A stretch of DNA of 57,277 nucleotides from Opitutus sp. GAS368 (GTDB lineage: Bacteria; Verrucomicrobiota; Verrucomicrobiia; Opitutales; Opitutaceae). The notes under the pieces are model-generated. The model was not told the DNA's origin, did not search any database, and was given only the letters and a program-made list of their open reading frames with translations. Below, one piece after another: positions 38,920 to 53,099 of the stretch (position 1 is its first letter; every line of letters begins with the position of its first letter). Location: contig CAMBUJ010000002.1 of the NCBI GenBank assembly GCA_945871005.1, forward strand, positions 1 through 57,277, written 5' to 3'. Position numbers and translations under genes: made by a program.

Positions 38920-40218
38920 ATGAAACTTAAACTTCCTCTCACCATCCTCGCGGTCCTCGCCCTTGGCGGCGGCCTTGCCTTCTACATTATTGAAAGTGGC
39001 CACGGCCACTCTGCCGAAACTGCAGGTGGCCACGACGACCACGCTGGCGAGGCCCCAGGGGCCCACGGCGAAAAAGCAGGCGACGAAGGGGCCAAGGGCC
39101 CGCATGGCGGACGCCTCCTTGCCGACGGCGATTTCACCATCGAACTCGCGATCGCCGAACAAGGCTTGCCACCCGAATTCCGCGCCTGGTTCACGCAGGC
39201 TGGCAAACCCGTCGTTAATTCAGCGGTTAAACTCACCGTCGTGCTCAAGCGTCCCGGCAACGTCACCGATACCTACACGTTCACTCCTGAGGGCGATTAC
39301 CTGCGCGGTAACGCCGAGGTCTATGAGCCTCACTCCTTCGCCTACACCGTCGTCGCCGAGCACGCCGGTCGCACTCACCGCTGGGAATTCGACGCGCCCG
39401 AGATGCAGGTGACGATCACCGCCGATGCCGCCACGCGCGCCGGAGTCGTCGCCGAGGTCGCCGGCCCCGCCACCTTGGATGAAACGCTCTCCGTTTATGG
39501 TCAGGTGAAACTCAACGCCAACCAAGTCGCCCGCGCCGTGCCGCGTTTTGGCGGCATCATCCGCGAGGCCCGTAAAGCCCTCGGCGATTCCGTGAAGGCA
39601 GGCGAAGTTGTCGCCATTCTCGAAACCAACCAGTCGCTCGCCACCATCGAGGTGAAATCGCCCATCGCCGGCATCATCGTGGACCGTGACGTGAACGCCG
39701 GTGAAACCGTCACCGACGGTGCCGTGCTCTACACCATCGCCGATCTCTCCGATGTGTGGGTCGATCTCAACGTCCCCAAGCGCGACCAGGCCCGCGTCAA
39801 AGTCGGTCAATCCGCCGTCATCCACGCGGATGACACCGGCACCGATGCCACTGGCACCGTCTCATGGATTTCGCCGATCAGCTCCGCCGAGGCGCAAACC
39901 CTCGTCGCCCGTGTCGTCCTCTCGAACGCCGACCAACGCTGGCGTCCGGGCCTCTTTGTGAAGGCCAAAATCACCCTAGCCCAAGAAACCGTGCCCGTGG
40001 CGGTGAAGGAATCGGCCCTCCAGTCGTTGTTCGACTTCACCGTGGTGTTCTCGCAGCACGACGACCTCTATCAGGCGCGCCCGCTTGAGCTGGGCCGTCG
40101 AGGCGGCGGTTTCGTCGAAGTGCTCAAAGGACTCAAGGCCGGCGAGCGCTACGTCACCGAAAACAGCTTCCTCATCAAGGCCGACATCGGGAAGTCCGGC
40201 GCCGCCCACGATCATTGA
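38920..40218 (+). CDS. RND periplasmic adaptor (CzcB/CusB-like)
   Basis: GPHGGRLLADGDF N-terminal domain, VRARVPRFGGIIREARKALGDSVKAGEVVA-type lipoyl region (sequence VARAVPRFGGIIREARKALGDSVKAGEVVAILE), SPIAGIIVDRDVNAGETV. Confidence 0.95.
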   Translation: MKLKLPLTILAVLALGGGLAFYIIESGHGHSAETAGGHDDHAGEAPGAHGEKAGDEGAKGPHGGRLLADGDFTIELAIAEQGLPPEFRAWFTQAGKPVVNSAVKLTVVLKRPGNVTDTYTFTPEGDYLRGNAEVYEPHSFAYTVVAEHAGRTHRWEFDAPEMQVTITADAATRAGVVAEVAGPATLDETLSVYGQVKLNANQVARAVPRFGGIIREARKALGDSVKAGEVVAILETNQSLATIEVKSPIAGIIVDRDVNAGETVTDGAVLYTIADLSDVWVDLNVPKRDQARVKVGQSAVIHADDTGTDATGTVSWISPISSAEAQTLVARVVLSNADQRWRPGLFVKAKITLAQETVPVAVKESALQSLFDFTVVFSQHDDLYQARPLELGRRGGGFVEVLKGLKAGERYVTENSFLIKADIGKSGAAHDH

Positions 40219-43918: not shown

Positions 43919-44353
43919 ATGAAATCCGTAACCCTGATCCTCACTCTGACTGCGCTTACGCTGAGCGGTTGCACCACCCCGCGCCAGTCCTCCGCCACCG
44001 CCCCGAACATCCCCCTGCAAATCGAAGACTGTGACCACGTGGTCATTGGCTCGGCCCGCATAGAAAAGACTGCCCGTGGCACTGAATTGGTAGGTACTGT
44101 GCGCCGTGCCTATGTCAACAAACCCACCGCAGGCACGCACATCGACATCACGATTCAAGGGCCGGCCACCCAGCCGCCACAAGTCGAGCGATTTTCACCT
44201 GGCGAAATCGGCTATTCGCCACAATTCCCGCGCCGCGTCGCCCGCTTCCGAATCCTGCTCGCGCCTGGCACAGGACCGATCACGGCGATCACCCTGCGCG
44301 CACATGACGAAGCGGATGTTGAGCTCACACCACCCGTTATCCCCGCAACCTAA
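43919..44353 (+). CDS. Putative lipoprotein
   Basis: Lipobox LTLSGC after signal peptide; 144 aa. Confidence 0.6.
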   Translation: MKSVTLILTLTALTLSGCTTPRQSSATAPNIPLQIEDCDHVVIGSARIEKTARGTELVGTVRRAYVNKPTAGTHIDITIQGPATQPPQVERFSPGEIGYSPQFPRRVARFRILLAPGTGPITAITLRAHDEADVELTPPVIPAT

Positions 44354-44522: not shown

Positions 44523-44951
44523 TTGACAAAATATGCGCAATCAAAGTCGGTTAGTCGCGTGGCATTTTTTCGTCGCATCATCGCAATCATGTTTCTGGCC
44601 CTGTGGTTACCAGCGACACAGCATTGCGGTCTTGAGGCGGCAGGCTTGATCGCTGCGGAGGCCCAGCACGCCTCTCCCGCTCAATGCTGCGACACCAGTA
44701 CCCGGTGCGCCCATGACGGCTGTAACGTGATTGAAAACGGGTTAATCAAACCCGCCAGCGAAGCAAAAGTACTCGCACCTGACCTGTCCGGCTGCCTGTG
44801 CTTCATTTGTTTGCAACTTGCTCAGCCGGGCATGCTGGATGAGTCCGCATTGGTGGTGGCAGACCCCAATGATCCGCTCGATTGGGTGCCCATTTGGCAG
44901 TTTATGCGTCGGGCTGCGCCGCTGGCGCGGGCACCTTCGCTGCTTGGTTGA
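44523..44951 (+). CDS. Secreted Cys protein preceding second RND operon (family A)
   Basis: MFLALWLPATQHCGLEAAGLIAAEAQHASPAQCCDTSTRCAHDGCNVIENG; paralogue of 37108..37494. Confidence 0.65.
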   Translation: MTKYAQSKSVSRVAFFRRIIAIMFLALWLPATQHCGLEAAGLIAAEAQHASPAQCCDTSTRCAHDGCNVIENGLIKPASEAKVLAPDLSGCLCFICLQLAQPGMLDESALVVADPNDPLDWVPIWQFMRRAAPLARAPSLLG

Positions 44952-45073: not shown

Positions 45074-46387
45074 ATGAAATCATCTGTTTCTTCCCGTCAT
45101 ACTCTCGTCAGCCCGGCTTATGGGTTGATCTTGTTTGCACTCGCCACGGGCTTGCGCGCTCAACCTGCGCCGGCCGAAGCCACTCCGCCCGTCTCGCTTT
45201 CCGCGCTTGTCGGTGAAATCACTGCAAAGAACCCCGAGCGGCAGTTCTATCAAGAGGAAATCAACGCGGCCAAAGCGGGCTTGCGACTCTCATCTCGTCT
45301 CAACGACCCCGAACTCTCGTTCGATATAGGCCGTAAAAGCCTCAAGGACTCTACCGGCGTGCGCATCGACGAGGGCGCGGTCTGGTCGGTGTCGGTCACG
45401 CAAACTTTCGAGTGGCCCGGTCGCCTATCACTGCGCAAGGCCATCGCCAACCGACAGCTCGAACTCGCCGAACTGGGTGTCGCTCGTTTTGAAAATGCGT
45501 TGAGCGCCCGCGCTCGCAGCCTCGCCTTCGGTCTTTATTCGGCAAACGCCAAAGCCGACGCGATCCGCCAAGTATCCGACCGATTCGCCGCCCTTAAGGA
45601 AACCTTCCTCTCCCGTGATCCGGCGGGAGTCACACCGCTATTGGAGACGCGTGTGATCGAGGCCAGCGAACTCACCCTCCAGCGTCGTGCCACCGAGGCC
45701 GAACTCGCGGTGCAGAGCGCGCTCATCGAGTTGAATCAACTTCGTGGCGTGGCACCCGACGCGCCGCTTCGCGTCGCGGCCTCGGCGCTGGCTTTTAACA
45801 GCGTGCCCGAAACGACCACGCTGCTCGCCGCCGCGCGCGAGAACAACTTCGACTACAAGATGCGCCGCGTGGAACTGGAGCAACAGGGCTACGCAGTGAG
45901 GCTCGCCCGTAACGAACGTTATCCCGGTATTAGCGTCGGCCCTTTCCTCTCGAAGGATAATGTCGGTGATCGTGAAACCATCGTTGGCATCGGCCTGAGC
46001 GTGCCATTGCCCATTTCCGGCCGCACCGGAGCTAACGTGGACATCGCTAGCGCACGTCGTCGGCAGGCAGAAACCGCCGTGCTCATCGCGCTGCGCGAAC
46101 TCGACCGCGAGGTCATGACCGCCGCCCAGGCGTTCGCCATCAAACGCTCCGAGTCCGGCCGATGGACGCCGGATGCGGCCGTTAAATTCCGCGAAGCCGC
46201 CGAACTGGCTGACCGCCATTATCGTCTCGGCGCGGTGCCCATCGCCACCTACGTCGAGTTGCAAAAGAGCTATCTCGACGCCGTCGAATCCCTGCTCGAC
46301 ACGCAGAGCGAAGCGCTCGCCGCCGGTCTCAAGCTCCAACAGCTCACCGGCCTCGACCTCAACCCAGTCCAGATTTCCCAACCATGA
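45074..46387 (+). CDS. TolC-family outer membrane efflux protein (CzcC-like)
   Basis: SALVGEITAKNPERQFYQEEINAAKAGLRLSSRLNDPELSFDIG; precedes adaptor and RND pump. Confidence 0.9.
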   Translation: MKSSVSSRHTLVSPAYGLILFALATGLRAQPAPAEATPPVSLSALVGEITAKNPERQFYQEEINAAKAGLRLSSRLNDPELSFDIGRKSLKDSTGVRIDEGAVWSVSVTQTFEWPGRLSLRKAIANRQLELAELGVARFENALSARARSLAFGLYSANAKADAIRQVSDRFAALKETFLSRDPAGVTPLLETRVIEASELTLQRRATEAELAVQSALIELNQLRGVAPDAPLRVAASALAFNSVPETTTLLAAARENNFDYKMRRVELEQQGYAVRLARNERYPGISVGPFLSKDNVGDRETIVGIGLSVPLPISGRTGANVDIASARRRQAETAVLIALRELDREVMTAAQAFAIKRSESGRWTPDAAVKFREAAELADRHYRLGAVPIATYVELQKSYLDAVESLLDTQSEALAAGLKLQQLTGLDLNPVQISQP

Positions 46388-46839
46388 AAACTCTCCTTAC
46401 CGTCGTCCTTCTTTCCACGCTCACCTTCGCCCTTAGCGGTTGCGGAGACTCTCAAGCCGCCTCCAAGCCGCAAGCCGAACCCACGCCCGCCTCGACCTAC
46501 AAGGCCGGCCACGGCGTCCAGCTCACCGAGACCGGCCGCAAATTCGTCGGCGTGCAAACCGGCGAAGTCGGTTCACACGCTTTCGCGGGCGCGACCGAAG
46601 TGCCAGCGATTCCGGCCGACGCGCTCTTGCGCACCGTAAAAGGCGATTTCGTCTATGTAGCTAATGGCGATTGGTTCCTGCGAACGCCCGTGACGGTTGG
46701 TGGCGCCGATGGCACACACGTCGAAATCAAAGACGGTCTCTATGAGGGTGACACCATCGTCGTCAAAGGCGTGCGCGGTCTCTCTCTCGCTGAAATTCAG
46801 GCACTAAATGGAGGCGTCGGCTGCGCCGACGGACACTGA
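46384..46839 (+). CDS. Minimal RND adaptor (C-terminal domain only), lipoprotein
   Basis: LSGC lipobox; VPAIPADALLRTVKGDFVYVANGDWFLRTPVTVGGADGTHVEIKDGLYEGDTIVVKG matches adaptor C-terminal domain. Confidence 0.75.
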   Translation: MKTLLTVVLLSTLTFALSGCGDSQAASKPQAEPTPASTYKAGHGVQLTETGRKFVGVQTGEVGSHAFAGATEVPAIPADALLRTVKGDFVYVANGDWFLRTPVTVGGADGTHVEIKDGLYEGDTIVVKGVRGLSLAEIQALNGGVGCADGH

Positions 46840-49800
46840 TGCTTGAATGGCTCATTGATTTCTCTCTTCGCAAACGCGGGCTGATTGTTTGCAGCGCGCT
46901 CACCCTTTTGGGAGTCGGCCTTTGGGCGGCCACGCGGCTCGGCGTCGATGCCGTGCCGGACATCACGAACCCGCAGATCCAGATCAACACCGAGGTGGCG
47001 GCGCTCGCCCCCGAGGAGATCGAGACCTTGGTCACGGTACCGGTGGAAATGGAGATGGCCGGCCTCCCCGACATGACCGAACTCCGGTCCCTGTCAAAAT
47101 TCGGGCTCTCGCAAATCACGATGACGTTCAAGGACGACGTGGACATCTATCGTCTACGCCAACTCGTCACCGAACGCCTTGGTCGCGCCCGCGACCGACT
47201 GCCGGCCAAGGTGACGCCTGCGCTTGCGCCGATCAGCACCGGTCTGGGGGAAATCGTTTATTACACCCTGCGCTACAAGCCGGGCGCTCCGGGAGCCCCC
47301 GTAGACCGGGCGGAGCAACTTCGTCAGCTCCGCCTGCTTCACGACTACACGCTCAAGCCCCTCCTCCGCTCTACGCCCGGACTGGCCGAGGTGAACGCCA
47401 TCGGCGGCTATGAAAAGCAAATCGTCATCGCACCCGATCCGGCCAAGCTGGAGCAGGCCGGCGTGAGCTTTGAGCAACTTGTCGCGGTCGTGCGCAACAG
47501 CACGGAAAACGCCGGCGGCGGCGTCCTCGAAATGGGCGGCGAAGCCGTCGTGGTGCGGGCCAATACACGCGCGAAAACAGCGGAAGACCTGGGTGGTTTG
47601 CCGGTCAAGTTCGCGGGTGCGGCCCGCCCGCTGCTCATCCGCGATCTGGCGGAAGTCACCATCGGGTCGGCGGTGCGCACTGGTGCCTCGACCGAAGATG
47701 GCGAGGAAACCATCACCGGCGCGGCAATCATGCTGGCAGGCGAAAACGCCCGACTGGTCGCCCAAGCGGTCGTCGAGAAACTGAAGCACATCCAGGAAAA
47801 GCTTCCGCAAGGCATCGAGATTCGAGTCGTCTATGATCGCTCCGATCTGGTCAACGCGACGATCCATACGGTGGAGAAAAACCTTTTCGAGGGCGCGGTG
47901 CTCGTGGCCGTCATCCTCTTCGGCTTCCTCGGCAACTGGCGCGCGGCCTTGATCGTGTCCCTAGCGATTCCGCTTTCGTTTCTCTTCATGCTCACCGGCA
48001 TGGTGGAGGCGAAAATCACCGCCAACTTGATGAGCCTCGGCGCGATCGACTTCGGTCTCATCGTGGACGGAGCGATTGTGATGGTGGAAAACATCCTCCG
48101 CCACATCGCGGAGAAACAGCACGCGCTCGGTCGAAAGCTCACGCCTGCCGAGCGGCTGACCGAGGTGCGCCTCTCCGCACGAGAAGTGGCGCGGCCTATG
48201 TTTTTTGGCGTGCTCATCATCACGCTCGTTTACGTGCCGATTCTGGCACTCACCGGCATCGAGGGTAAGATGTTCCGGCCAATGGCGGTCACCGTGATGT
48301 TCGCGCTCGTGGGCGCGCTCGTGCTCGCGCTGACGCTCATGCCCGCCCTCTGCTCGTGGTTCCTTCGTGGCAACATCAGCGAGAAGGACAACTGGGCGGT
48401 GCGCGGCGCGAAGGCGCTCTACACTCCCTTGCTTGCGTGGGCGCTGCGTATGCGGTGGCTGATCGTTGCCGCCGCCCTCGCGCTCTTTGCGGTCTCAGGC
48501 TGGATTTTCACCAAACTCGGGGCCGAGTTTATCCCGCAACTCGATGAAGGCTCGATGTCCATCCAGATGATTCGCGGCAACAGCGTCGCCTTGGGCGATT
48601 CAGTCGAGTTACAACGGGCGTCTGAAAAGCTCCTCATGGAAAAATTTCCCGAGGTCAGCCATATCTTCTCCCGCATCGGCACGGCGGAGATCGCGACCGA
48701 TCCGATGGGACCGAACGTTTCCGACACCTACCTCTTCTTTACGCCCTTGGATAAATGGCGCGAGGTGGACGGACGCAAAATCACCAAGCCCGAACTGATC
48801 GAGCTCATGCGTCGGGAACTCGTGGCCGCCGCACCGGGCCAGACGTATCTTTTCACCCAGCCGATTCAGATGCGTTTTAACGAAATCATGGCCGGCGCAC
48901 GCGCCGACTTGTCCTTGAAAATCTACGGCGACGACTATGCCGAGTTGGAGCGCCTCGCAACCGCAGCCCGCGACGTGCTGCGCGGCGTGACCGGCGGAGG
49001 AGATGTCGAGTTCGAAGCGCTCGGCCGCGTGCCCATGCTTGAAATCACCCCGAAGCGCGAAGCCCTGCAACGGCTCAACCTGCACGCCGACGAAATCAAT
49101 GCCGTGGTCGGCACCGCTCTTGGCGGCGAAGAGGCCGGCTCATTGATCGACGGCAGCAAACGCTACGATGTCGTGGTGCGACTGTCGGAGGCGGAACGCA
49201 TGAACCTCGCAGGGCTCAGGCAACTGCCGGTGATCGGCGGCGAAGGCGCGCACGTGCCGCTTGAGCGTGTCGCCGACATCACCGTCGCCGACCGGGTGGG
49301 CACGATCAACCGCGAGGACACACAACGCCGGGTCGCCATCCTCATCAACGTGCGCGGTCGCGACACCGAAAGCTTCGTATTGGAAGCGCAGGCGAAGCTT
49401 AACGAGCGGGTAAAGTTTCCGCCGGGCTACTTCTTCGAGTTCGGCGGGCAATTCGAGAACCTTCAGGCCGCGCGCGCGCGCCTGATGATCGTCGTCCCCG
49501 CCGCGCTCCTGCTGATCTTCGGCCTCATCTACGCGAGCTTCGGCAGCGCACGGCAGGCGACGCTTATCTTCCTTTGCGTGCCCTTGGCCGCGACCGGCGG
49601 TGTGATCGCGCTGTGGGCGCGCGGCATGCCCTTCACCATTTCCGCAGCAGTAGGCTTCATCGCGCTGTCCGGCATCGCCGTGCTTAACGGCATCATGCTG
49701 ATCAGCTTTATCAACCAGCTCCGCGCTGAGGGCAGCGATGTGCGCAAGGCGGTAATCGAAGGAACCCTGACGCGACTGCGCCCGAAATTAATGACCGCTC

Positions 49801-49991
49801 TGGTGGCGTCCCTCGGCTTCGTGCCGATGGCGTTGTCCACCGGAGCCGGGGCCGAAGTGCAACGCCCGCTGGCGACCGTCGTTATCGGCGGCGTCATCAC
49901 CTCAACCTTTCTTACGCTGATTCTTCTACCCGTGCTTTACGACTGGATGGAGCGTCGGAGCGAGAAACCTCCCGTTAGTTCAACCCACTAA
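46839..49991 (+). CDS. Heavy-metal RND efflux pump (CzcA family), second copy
   Basis: 1050 aa; [53 protein letters not shown]. Confidence 0.95.
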   Translation: MLEWLIDFSLRKRGLIVCSALTLLGVGLWAATRLGVDAVPDITNPQIQINTEVAALAPEEIETLVTVPVEMEMAGLPDMTELRSLSKFGLSQITMTFKDDVDIYRLRQLVTERLGRARDRLPAKVTPALAPISTGLGEIVYYTLRYKPGAPGAPVDRAEQLRQLRLLHDYTLKPLLRSTPGLAEVNAIGGYEKQIVIAPDPAKLEQAGVSFEQLVAVVRNSTENAGGGVLEMGGEAVVVRANTRAKTAEDLGGLPVKFAGAARPLLIRDLAEVTIGSAVRTGASTEDGEETITGAAIMLAGENARLVAQAVVEKLKHIQEKLPQGIEIRVVYDRSDLVNATIHTVEKNLFEGAVLVAVILFGFLGNWRAALIVSLAIPLSFLFMLTGMVEAKITANLMSLGAIDFGLIVDGAIVMVENILRHIAEKQHALGRKLTPAERLTEVRLSAREVARPMFFGVLIITLVYVPILALTGIEGKMFRPMAVTVMFALVGALVLALTLMPALCSWFLRGNISEKDNWAVRGAKALYTPLLAWALRMRWLIVAAALALFAVSGWIFTKLGAEFIPQLDEGSMSIQMIRGNSVALGDSVELQRASEKLLMEKFPEVSHIFSRIGTAEIATDPMGPNVSDTYLFFTPLDKWREVDGRKITKPELIELMRRELVAAAPGQTYLFTQPIQMRFNEIMAGARADLSLKIYGDDYAELERLATAARDVLRGVTGGGDVEFEALGRVPMLEITPKREALQRLNLHADEINAVVGTALGGEEAGSLIDGSKRYDVVVRLSEAERMNLAGLRQLPVIGGEGAHVPLERVADITVADRVGTINREDTQRRVAILINVRGRDTESFVLEAQAKLNERVKFPPGYFFEFGGQFENLQAARARLMIVVPAALLLIFGLIYASFGSARQATLIFLCVPLAATGGVIALWARGMPFTISAAVGFIALSGIAVLNGIMLISFINQLRAEGSDVRKAVIEGTLTRLRPKLMTALVASLGFVPMALSTGAGAEVQRPLATVVIGGVITSTFLTLILLPVLYDWMERRSEKPPVSSTH

Positions 49992-50001
49992 ATCCAAAAT
50001 C

Positions 50002-50439
50002 ATGAAACTGAAATACATCACGTTCGCGGTGGCCGCTCTTTGTGCCACCGCTTCCCTCCACGCCGAAAAAATCGTTGCCGGCCCAAAAGGCGGACGACTT
50101 CTTGAAGCCGAACCACTCAAGGCGGAGTTCTTCGTCAATGCGGAACGCAAGGTCGAGGTCACGTTCTACGACGCGGCGCTCAAGCCTACCGATCCGGGCG
50201 CTCAAACCGTCACGGTCACGGCCGAGCCTGCCAGTGGTAAAACCAAGCTTGAGCTGGAAAAAACCGCCACTGGGTTTGTCTCCAAGACAGCCCTGCCGGC
50301 AGGCGAGCCGTATCGTGTCGTGGTGCAAGCCCGCGCCAGCGCGGACGCGAAGCCCAAAAACTTCCGCGTCGATCTGAACCTCGCCACCTGTGGAGGGTGC
50401 CAGAAGTCAGAATACGCCTGCGTCTGCGATTCGCACTAA
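50002..50439 (+). CDS. Secreted stand-alone adaptor N-terminal-like domain with Cys tail
   Basis: Signal peptide; GPKGGRLLEAEPLKAEFFVNAERKVEVTFYDAALKP; tail CGGCQKSEYACVCDSH. Confidence 0.65.
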   Translation: MKLKYITFAVAALCATASLHAEKIVAGPKGGRLLEAEPLKAEFFVNAERKVEVTFYDAALKPTDPGAQTVTVTAEPASGKTKLELEKTATGFVSKTALPAGEPYRVVVQARASADAKPKNFRVDLNLATCGGCQKSEYACVCDSH

Positions 50440-50469: not shown

Positions 50470-52452
50470 ATGAGCGCTCCACACGAACACGCCTGCGATC
50501 AGGAAGCCAAAGCGCATCACGATCACGGTTCGTGCTGTTGCGATCATGGCGACGACAACGGCAGCGGTTGGGAAAGCCGCAGTCTCGCCCTGTCTGGCGT
50601 ATTGGTCGGCGCGGGCCTGCTGCTTCGTTGGACGGACTTGGCTCCCGCCCCGGTTCAAACCTCGTTGTTCGCCGTCGCCATCGCGGCGGGAGGCTGGTTT
50701 CTGCTTCCCGCCGCATGTCGCGCCTTGCGGCAGCTCCGCCCCAACATCGCGCTGTTGATGGTTATCGCTGTCATCGGCGCCGCCGTCATCGGCGAGTGGG
50801 CCGAAGCCGCCACAGTCGTCTTTCTCTTCGGCATCGCCGAATGGCTCGAAGGCTGGGCGGATCGGCGTGCGCGCCGCGCCACCGAGGCCCTGCTGCAACT
50901 CGCCCCGAAGATCGCCGTGGTGAAGCGCGACGGCGCGTTCATCGAAGTGCCGGTCGATCAAGTCGCAGTTGAAGAGACTGTCGCCACAAAATCCGGTATG
51001 AGCATTCCGCTCGATGGGGTCGTCATCAGCGGCGAATCTGCTGTTAACCAAGCACCGATCACCGGTGAGTCCGTGCCGGTGGACAAGAAGCCGGGCGACA
51101 CCGTGTTTGCCGGCACGATCAACGGCGAAGGCTCCTTGGAAATTCGAGTCACCAAAGCCTCCGGTGATACGACGCTGGCGCGCATCATCCGCCTCGTCGC
51201 GGAAGCACAGGAACAAAAAGCGCCGACCCAGCGTTTTGTAGATGTGTTCGCCCGTTATTACACGCCCGCCGTGACGGTATTGGCGTTGCTGATTTTTCTC
51301 ACGCCGCCTCTTTTCATGGATGGGGACTGGAGCGTATGGCTCTACCGCGCCTGCGTGCTGCTCATTATCGCCTGTCCGTGTGCGTTGGTCATTTCCACGC
51401 CGGTCAGCATCGTAGCGGGACTGACTGCACTCGCCCGGCTTGGGGTGCTCGTGAAGGGGGGCGCTCACCTCGAAACCATTGGAGGGCTCAAGGCGCTGGC
51501 GGTGGACAAGACCGGCACCATCACGGAAGGAAAACCCATGGTGCAAGGGGTTGAGTTGGTCAACGCGCAGTCTGTCTCGGATGTGCTGCGTATCGCCGCC
51601 GCAATCGACGATCACTCGGCCCATCCGCTCGCCAAGGCGGTGGTCGCTTACGCCAAGGAGCAGAAAGTCGCTTTTAATCGCGCGGAAAAATACCAGAATA
51701 ACAGCGGTCGTGGTGCGGAAGGCGTGGTGGATGGACACGCTTATTTTGTCGGGAATCATCGTTTCGCCCACGAACTCGGCGTGTGCAACGCAGACATCGA
51801 GCGCCGTCTCACATCCATTGAAGGGAAAGGCCAGTCGGTCGTTGTCGTCGGGCATCGTCCGCATGATGGCTGTACGGGTGAGGTGATTGGCATCATCGCG
51901 ATTGGTGATACGCTGCGCCCCAATGCCAAGGCGGCGATTGCGGAGCTTCATGCGGCGGGCATCATCCAAATCGTGATGCTTAGCGGCGACAATCAGCGCG
52001 CCGCAGATTTTATCGCCCGCCAGGTCGGCATCGATGAGGCGCGCGGCGATTTGCTCCCCGAAAACAAGGTTTCGGCTGTGAAGGCATTGCGAGACAAGCA
52101 CGGCGTGGTCGCCATGGTGGGAGACGGCGTGAATGATGCGCCCGCGATGGCGACGGCAAATATAGGCATCGCGATGGGCGCGGCCGGCACCGATGCCGCA
52201 ATCGAAACGGCGGACATCGCGCTGATGCAAGATGACCTGGGGAAAATCGCGGAGACGGTGCGTATCGGGCGGCGCACGATGGGCATTATCCGCTTCAACA
52301 TCACCTTCGCTTTGGGGCTGAAGGGATTGTTTCTGGTTCTTACGCTGATCGGTCACGCGAGCCTTTGGATGGCGATCATGGCGGATACAGGGGCCACGTT
52401 GCTTGTGGTAGCGAACGCCTTGCGCCTACTGAGGGCCGTCAAACCAGTTTAG
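50470..52452 (+). CDS. zntA: Zn/Cd/Pb-type P1B ATPase
   Basis: [38 protein letters not shown]; His/Cys-rich N-terminus HEHACDQEAKAHHDHGSCCCDHGDD. Confidence 0.9.
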   Translation: MSAPHEHACDQEAKAHHDHGSCCCDHGDDNGSGWESRSLALSGVLVGAGLLLRWTDLAPAPVQTSLFAVAIAAGGWFLLPAACRALRQLRPNIALLMVIAVIGAAVIGEWAEAATVVFLFGIAEWLEGWADRRARRATEALLQLAPKIAVVKRDGAFIEVPVDQVAVEETVATKSGMSIPLDGVVISGESAVNQAPITGESVPVDKKPGDTVFAGTINGEGSLEIRVTKASGDTTLARIIRLVAEAQEQKAPTQRFVDVFARYYTPAVTVLALLIFLTPPLFMDGDWSVWLYRACVLLIIACPCALVISTPVSIVAGLTALARLGVLVKGGAHLETIGGLKALAVDKTGTITEGKPMVQGVELVNAQSVSDVLRIAAAIDDHSAHPLAKAVVAYAKEQKVAFNRAEKYQNNSGRGAEGVVDGHAYFVGNHRFAHELGVCNADIERRLTSIEGKGQSVVVVGHRPHDGCTGEVIGIIAIGDTLRPNAKAAIAELHAAGIIQIVMLSGDNQRAADFIARQVGIDEARGDLLPENKVSAVKALRDKHGVVAMVGDGVNDAPAMATANIGIAMGAAGTDAAIETADIALMQDDLGKIAETVRIGRRTMGIIRFNITFALGLKGLFLVLTLIGHASLWMAIMADTGATLLVVANALRLLRAVKPV

Positions 52453-52676: not shown

Positions 52677-52768
52677 GGGGTCGGTCTGTTACATGGATAC
52701 ATTGAGAGTCGGATTTCACGCTTTTAAAGTTGGCTAATGATTATGTATTCATGTAACGACCCGACCCC
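52677..52768. repeat. REP/MITE-like inverted repeat
   Basis: GGGGTCGGTCTGTTACATGGATACAT (52677) and reverse complement GGGGTCGGGTCGTTACATGAATACAT (52743-52768). Confidence 0.7.
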
Positions 52769-52769
52769 A

Positions 52770-53099
52770 TTTCAGCGCCGCACCGTCACCACGCCGCAGA
52801 TCATTTTGTTCGGTCTCACCGGCGGACTGCTCCCGTGCCCGGCGGCATTTACTATCCTGCTGGTGTGCTTGCAGGTGAAGCAGGTCACCCTCGGGTTTGC
52901 CCTCGTGCTGTGTTTCAGCCTCGGGTTGGCGCTGACGCTGGTCGCCACTGGCACGCTGGCGGCGTGGAGTGTTCACCACGCTTCGAAACGCATCAAAGGC
53001 TTCGGCGAGTTCGCGCGAAAGGCCCCGTATTTCTCCAGCGCCTTACTGGTGGCAATGGGCCTGTTCATCGCGATTCAGGGCTGGCGTCACCTGAGCTGA
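52770..53099 (+). pseudogene. C-terminal fragment of RcnA/NicO-like Ni/Co exporter
   Basis: TTPQIILFGLTGGLLPCPAAFTILLVCLQVKQVTLGFALVLCFSLGLALTLVATG...RKAPYFSSALLVAMGLFIAIQG; N-terminal half absent. Confidence 0.75.

Follow-up and report, generated by a model that had tools for sequence, protein, structure and literature searches.

A putative MP-only adaptor lipoprotein in a heavy-metal RND operon of Opitutus sp. GAS368

Organisation of the operon

The window, i.e. the whole stretch of DNA that was analysed, comprises 57,277 nt of Opitutus sp. GAS368 (GCA_945871005.1, contig CAMBUJ010000002.1, positions 1 to 57,277, forward strand). The operon considered here encodes a CzcA-type RND pump, a TolC-like outer membrane factor (OMF) and, between them, a lipoprotein of 151 residues, hereafter the mini-adaptor or mini; loci with its homologues are called mini loci. 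MP denotes the membrane-proximal domain of RND adaptors. Operon 1 of the same window carries a longer adaptor (38920-40218). The features are:

44523..44951, + strand, small Cys-rich protein, first gene of the operon; in most mini loci BLAST places it 5' of the OMF gene
45074..46387, + strand, TolC-like OMF; Pfam OEP in two stretches; adjoins the mini gene in relatives
46384..46839, + strand, MP-only mini-adaptor, a lipoprotein of 151 aa whose lipobox Cys20 is encoded at 46441-46443
46492..46587, + strand, first half of the MP domain, residues ~37-68; contiguous alignment with the SilB MP construct 5a4g and with short adaptors
46597..46806, + strand, second half of the MP domain, residues ~72-141; TIGR01730, and 5a4g and CusB by fold
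46807..46836, + strand, C-terminal tail NGGVGCADGH with possible metal ligands; invariant or nearly so in the alignment
46839..49991, + strand, CzcA-type heavy-metal RND pump; TIGR00914, relay motif DFGLIVDGA
50002..50439, + strand, secreted protein with a weakly CrdA-like fold; profile and fold comparison
50470..52452, + strand, P1B-type heavy-metal ATPase; TIGR01525; a neighbour in only some relatives

The coordinates and length of the mini in the initial annotation, its lipobox (LSGC20) and the gene overlaps at 46384 and 46839 were all correct on rechecking: the start of the gene overlaps the OMF stop (ATGA, 46384-46387) and its stop overlaps the pump start (TGATG, 46837-46841). The start codon of the OMF at 45074 was picked by alignment. 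Sequence searches with the OMF gave no relative of solved structure, and the small Cys-rich protein had no Pfam matches. Positions 52737-53099, 3' of the ATPase gene, hold an open reading frame with similarity to NicO-like nickel transport. A small lipoprotein family is represented upstream of the operon (43919-44353), and its members lie between the pump and the secreted protein in L006, L007, L094 and L095.

Domain content of the mini-adaptor

The mini had been described as the C-terminal part of an adaptor. The alignment to adaptors is indeed solid in this region: TIGR01730 (RND_mfp) matches residues 59-133 over profile positions 236-313 (E 6e-11; 41.8 bits, below the curated cut-off of 94.9), and hhalign against full adaptors gave a probability of 96%. 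The description falls short in that an N-terminal MP segment (residues ~37-68) is present as well, so that the protein comprises a whole MP domain. As had been noted, the 151 residues contain no hairpin, lipoyl or barrel segments; a Pfam scan gave nothing useful, with no lipoyl or hairpin match.

A profile of the mini (14 homologues) aligned contiguously over residues 41-130 with 5a4g, and the AlphaFold model (mean pLDDT 83.8) returned 5a4g as the top Foldseek match, followed by CusB from the CusBA complex. 5a4g is a 180-residue SilB construct described as an N-terminal metal-binding site plus the MP domain. The two MP halves are far apart in a full adaptor (plasmid SilB, L119) and adjacent in both the mini and 5a4g, and because of this we infer that 5a4g is an artificial fusion of the halves. 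Although it lacks barrel, lipoyl and hairpin regions and scores below the curated cut-off, the mini is clearly derived by descent from RND adaptors.

Conservation and distribution

Of the 15 loci detected in a scan of GTDB species genomes, 14 are mini and one (L018) is a longer form. Among 250 Opitutaceae genomes, 23 mini loci were present in 22. Longer forms were numerous too, and both kinds occur together in six genomes (G064, G681, G726, G783, G800 and G829). Two minis lie outside the Opitutaceae, one in G354 (L050) with the same gene order and one in G409 (L086), which belongs to another class. The latter (L086:6742-7200) is a mini without the lipobox Cys whose pump groups with the mini clade, by transfer or shared descent. 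Two full-length mini loci occur in one genome (G727:C9), and L004 and L007 likewise come from one species.

Wherever the contig suffices, the gene order in mini loci is small Cys-rich protein, OMF, mini, pump, secreted protein. The mini gene stands in an operon with the RND pump and the OMF, the OMF adjoins it in nearly all loci, and the TGATG overlap between mini and pump is found in 12 of the 13 loci checked. Values of pN/pS for the mini (0.13-0.47) indicate purifying selection. In 14 aligned minis the tail NGGVGCADG(H/K) varies little or not at all, its Cys being invariant; it deviates in two outlying minis (L099 and L100). Frames are broken in L013 and L015. At L015:4581-9934 (the L103 site; Candidatus Synoicihabitans palmerolidicus) the OMF, pump and secreted-protein genes are fragmented, through decay or sequencing indels.

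The initial annotation had regarded the protein as minimal and hairpin-less and not as a product of random decay. This is upheld by its occurrence in many genera, the purifying selection, the conserved overlaps and the grouping of the pumps in one clade (below). None of the relatives examined in this pump clade has a full-length adaptor at this position.

Short adaptors and the pump tree

Elsewhere in Verrucomicrobiota the same operon encodes adaptors of ~230-275 aa, consisting of MP and barrel only. These short adaptors mostly have a lipobox, after which come two MP segments with a barrel-like segment between them, and then a tail, in most cases Cys- or His-rich. TIGR01730 matches each of the 19 short adaptors scanned; their Pfam matches do not include the lipoyl family. 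Against full adaptors their alignment is limited to the barrel and the C-terminal MP segment (probability 99.1). The mini profile aligns with them over all 151 residues (probability 100, E 5e-51) with a single gap of ~90 residues, corresponding to the absent barrel.

A tree of 66 pumps was calculated by a quick search with SH-aLRT support only. The pumps with short adaptors, with minis and with no adaptor form one clade (support 100), and those with minis are one clade nested within it (support 90). Outside lie the RND1 pump of the window, 11 plasmid CzcA-type pumps with lipoyl-bearing adaptors, L057 (other Verrucomicrobiota) and the outgroup SilA; the full-adaptor pumps are thus a small, mostly plasmid-borne sample. 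Since this outside sample is small, the order of losses suggested by the tree is taken as a working reading.

Two Sphingomonadales plasmid pumps within the clade directly follow an OMF gene with a 4-base overlap. No adaptor gene is annotated nearby, and no adaptor-like frame was detected beside them at E <= 10. These adaptorless pumps are located at L106:3176-7689 and L107:3248-7671, on Polymorphobacter and Sphingomonas plasmids. A search of 72,556 plasmids gave no short adaptor with >=80% query coverage, and a spread of short adaptors on plasmids is accordingly not supported. At L090:5829-13225 a single short adaptor precedes two tandem RND pump genes.

The RND pump

The pump scores 1234 bits against TIGR00914 (CusA/CzcA), above the cut-off of 701. 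The relay motif of TM4 (DFGxxxDGA) is present as DFGLIVDGA and is near-identical in all mini pumps, in which no long clade-specific insert was found; judged from these features, the mini-clade pump looks intact. The methionine triad of CusA (M573/M623/M672) is replaced, mostly by Q, V or T and in the mini clade by E, which leaves the pump without the Cu(I)/Ag(I) triad of the CusA type. Because of this replacement the sequence points to a divalent metal as the substrate.

The secreted protein

According to the initial annotation the adaptor is split, with the N-terminal domain of the operon 1 adaptor encoded separately behind the pump. This holds for the N-terminal accessory domain, found as the separate protein 50002-50439; barrel, lipoyl and hairpin regions are missing and not relocated. 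Profiles of 42 secreted homologues and eight adaptor N-terminal domains matched in hhalign with a probability of 93.7% (E 2e-7), while two control profiles gave 5-8%. Comparison of single sequences was too weak and profiles were needed; it is on the strength of the profile-profile match that the link holds. Within the operon no reading frame for a barrel, lipoyl or hairpin region was found, and BLAST with the operon 1 adaptor across the mini loci gave no further adaptor-like frame.

A sequence search with the secreted protein gave no relevant match. Its best Foldseek match is the copper-binding CrdA of H. pylori, and this is weak (E 8e-3, TM 0.46/0.59, 14% identity).

The adaptor of operon 1

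The operon 1 adaptor keeps lipoyl, barrel and MP regions. Like the mini, with which it had been compared, it has no alpha-hairpin: its lipoyl halves are ~7 residues apart, as against ~70 columns in L111, which alone among ten aligned adaptors contains the hairpin block. Lipoyl, barrel and MP without the alpha-hairpin are likewise found in the plasmid relatives L108, L109, L110, L112-L115 and L118. Hairpin-less sequences have been reported from spirochetes and, rarely, from proteobacteria such as Legionella, by Greene et al. (PMC3807786); L108 and L115 are Legionella examples.

Discussion

In models of tripartite pumps, the hairpin, lipoyl and barrel parts of the adaptor join the pump to the outer membrane channel. 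Given the observed domain content, conservation, gene order, series of reduction along the pump tree and intact pump, we tentatively regard the 151-residue protein as the cognate periplasmic adaptor of the CzcA-type pump, evolutionarily reduced to the MP domain, at slightly less than even confidence. With similar reserve, the clade may be one of working metal RND pumps with an MP-only adaptor, in which pump and OMF are coupled without a bridging ring and adaptors shrink stepwise (MP plus barrel, then MP only) or are absent from the operon.

The MP domain is the pump-contacting part of known adaptors (PMC13328181). Lipid-anchored copies of the mini could dock onto the porter domain, at the place where CusA contacts the MP domain of CusB, and the mini would then be a gating and metal-handing subunit. 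Its tail, to judge from the Cys and His residues, might bind a divalent metal (Zn/Cd/Co-like, perhaps Cu) and pass it into the periplasmic cleft of the pump. As a free counterpart of the adaptor N-terminal domain, the secreted protein would bind metal in the periplasm. With no ring of barrel, lipoyl or hairpin parts as a bridge, contact between OMF and pump would have to be direct or only transient.

The missing bridge could also mean that there is no sealed OMF channel at all and that the pump moves metal loosely from the inner membrane or periplasm, the mini being a metal-sensing regulator or metal donor and not an adaptor. The loss of every bridging domain, the conserved Cys/His tail and the metal-binding-like secreted protein of the same operon fit such a pump; the genes for OMF and mini nevertheless stay neighbours at almost every locus, and we consider this reading unlikely. 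Alternatively, a longer adaptor encoded elsewhere might act in trans and bridge to the OMF, with the mini filling part of the adaptor sites as in two-adaptor pumps. Such help is possible because several longer adaptors are present in each of the 16 genomes tested, and the genome of the window itself has at least 10 HlyD_D23 matches. However, the mini operon is not consistently accompanied by any one longer adaptor: one like that of operon 1, with the N-terminal domain, occurs in only one of the 16 genomes and is absent from G651, whose pump is 97% identical, so that the operon 1 adaptor is rejected as an obligate partner. Together with the two pumps of the wider clade that have no adjoining adaptor gene at all, this makes a partner in trans rather improbable.

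The mini falls well below the length of every described adaptor, as would be expected of a decaying or mis-assembled gene of this genome. Decay or deletion in a single genome is, however, ruled out by its conservation in many genera, pN/pS well below 1, the near-invariant tail and the conserved overlaps, and the chance that the gene is such an artefact is minute.

That an MP-only adaptor is kept intact across many species, in Opitutaceae and a few relatives, suggests that pumps of this kind can work without the parts thought to link inner and outer membrane. Such a natural series, in which the linking parts are lost and pump and channel conserved, separates the jobs of the adaptor, and it is the MP domain that selection keeps. 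Mini operons are ready minimal systems for asking if an MP domain is sufficient to activate an RND pump and if the channel can contact the pump directly.

In the open-access literature searched, loss of the hairpin (BesA) and of the MP domain (EmrA) is described, and reduction to the MP domain was not found. The mini shares its operon slot, the MP domain and the metal pump partner with CusB, SilB, ZneB and CzcB, but these have ~320-530 aa and possess the barrel, lipoyl domain and hairpin that it lacks. BesA of Borrelia burgdorferi is likewise a lipoprotein with an RND partner and a natural loss of the hairpin; unlike the mini, which has the MP domain only, it retains lipoyl, barrel and MP (PMC3807786). 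IhpB-type adaptors, represented by that of operon 1, are also hairpin-less metal RND adaptors with a C-terminal MP segment, and their N-terminal domain is related to the secreted protein 50002-50439, but they retain the lipoyl and barrel regions. The CrdA-CrdB-CzcB-CzcA copper efflux system of H. pylori has a similar gene set, i.e. a small secreted copper-binding protein, an OMF, an adaptor and a CzcA pump (PMC12319023 and PMC9182242); the comparison of its adaptor with the mini is at the level of the gene set, and the secreted protein resembles CrdA weakly, in fold.
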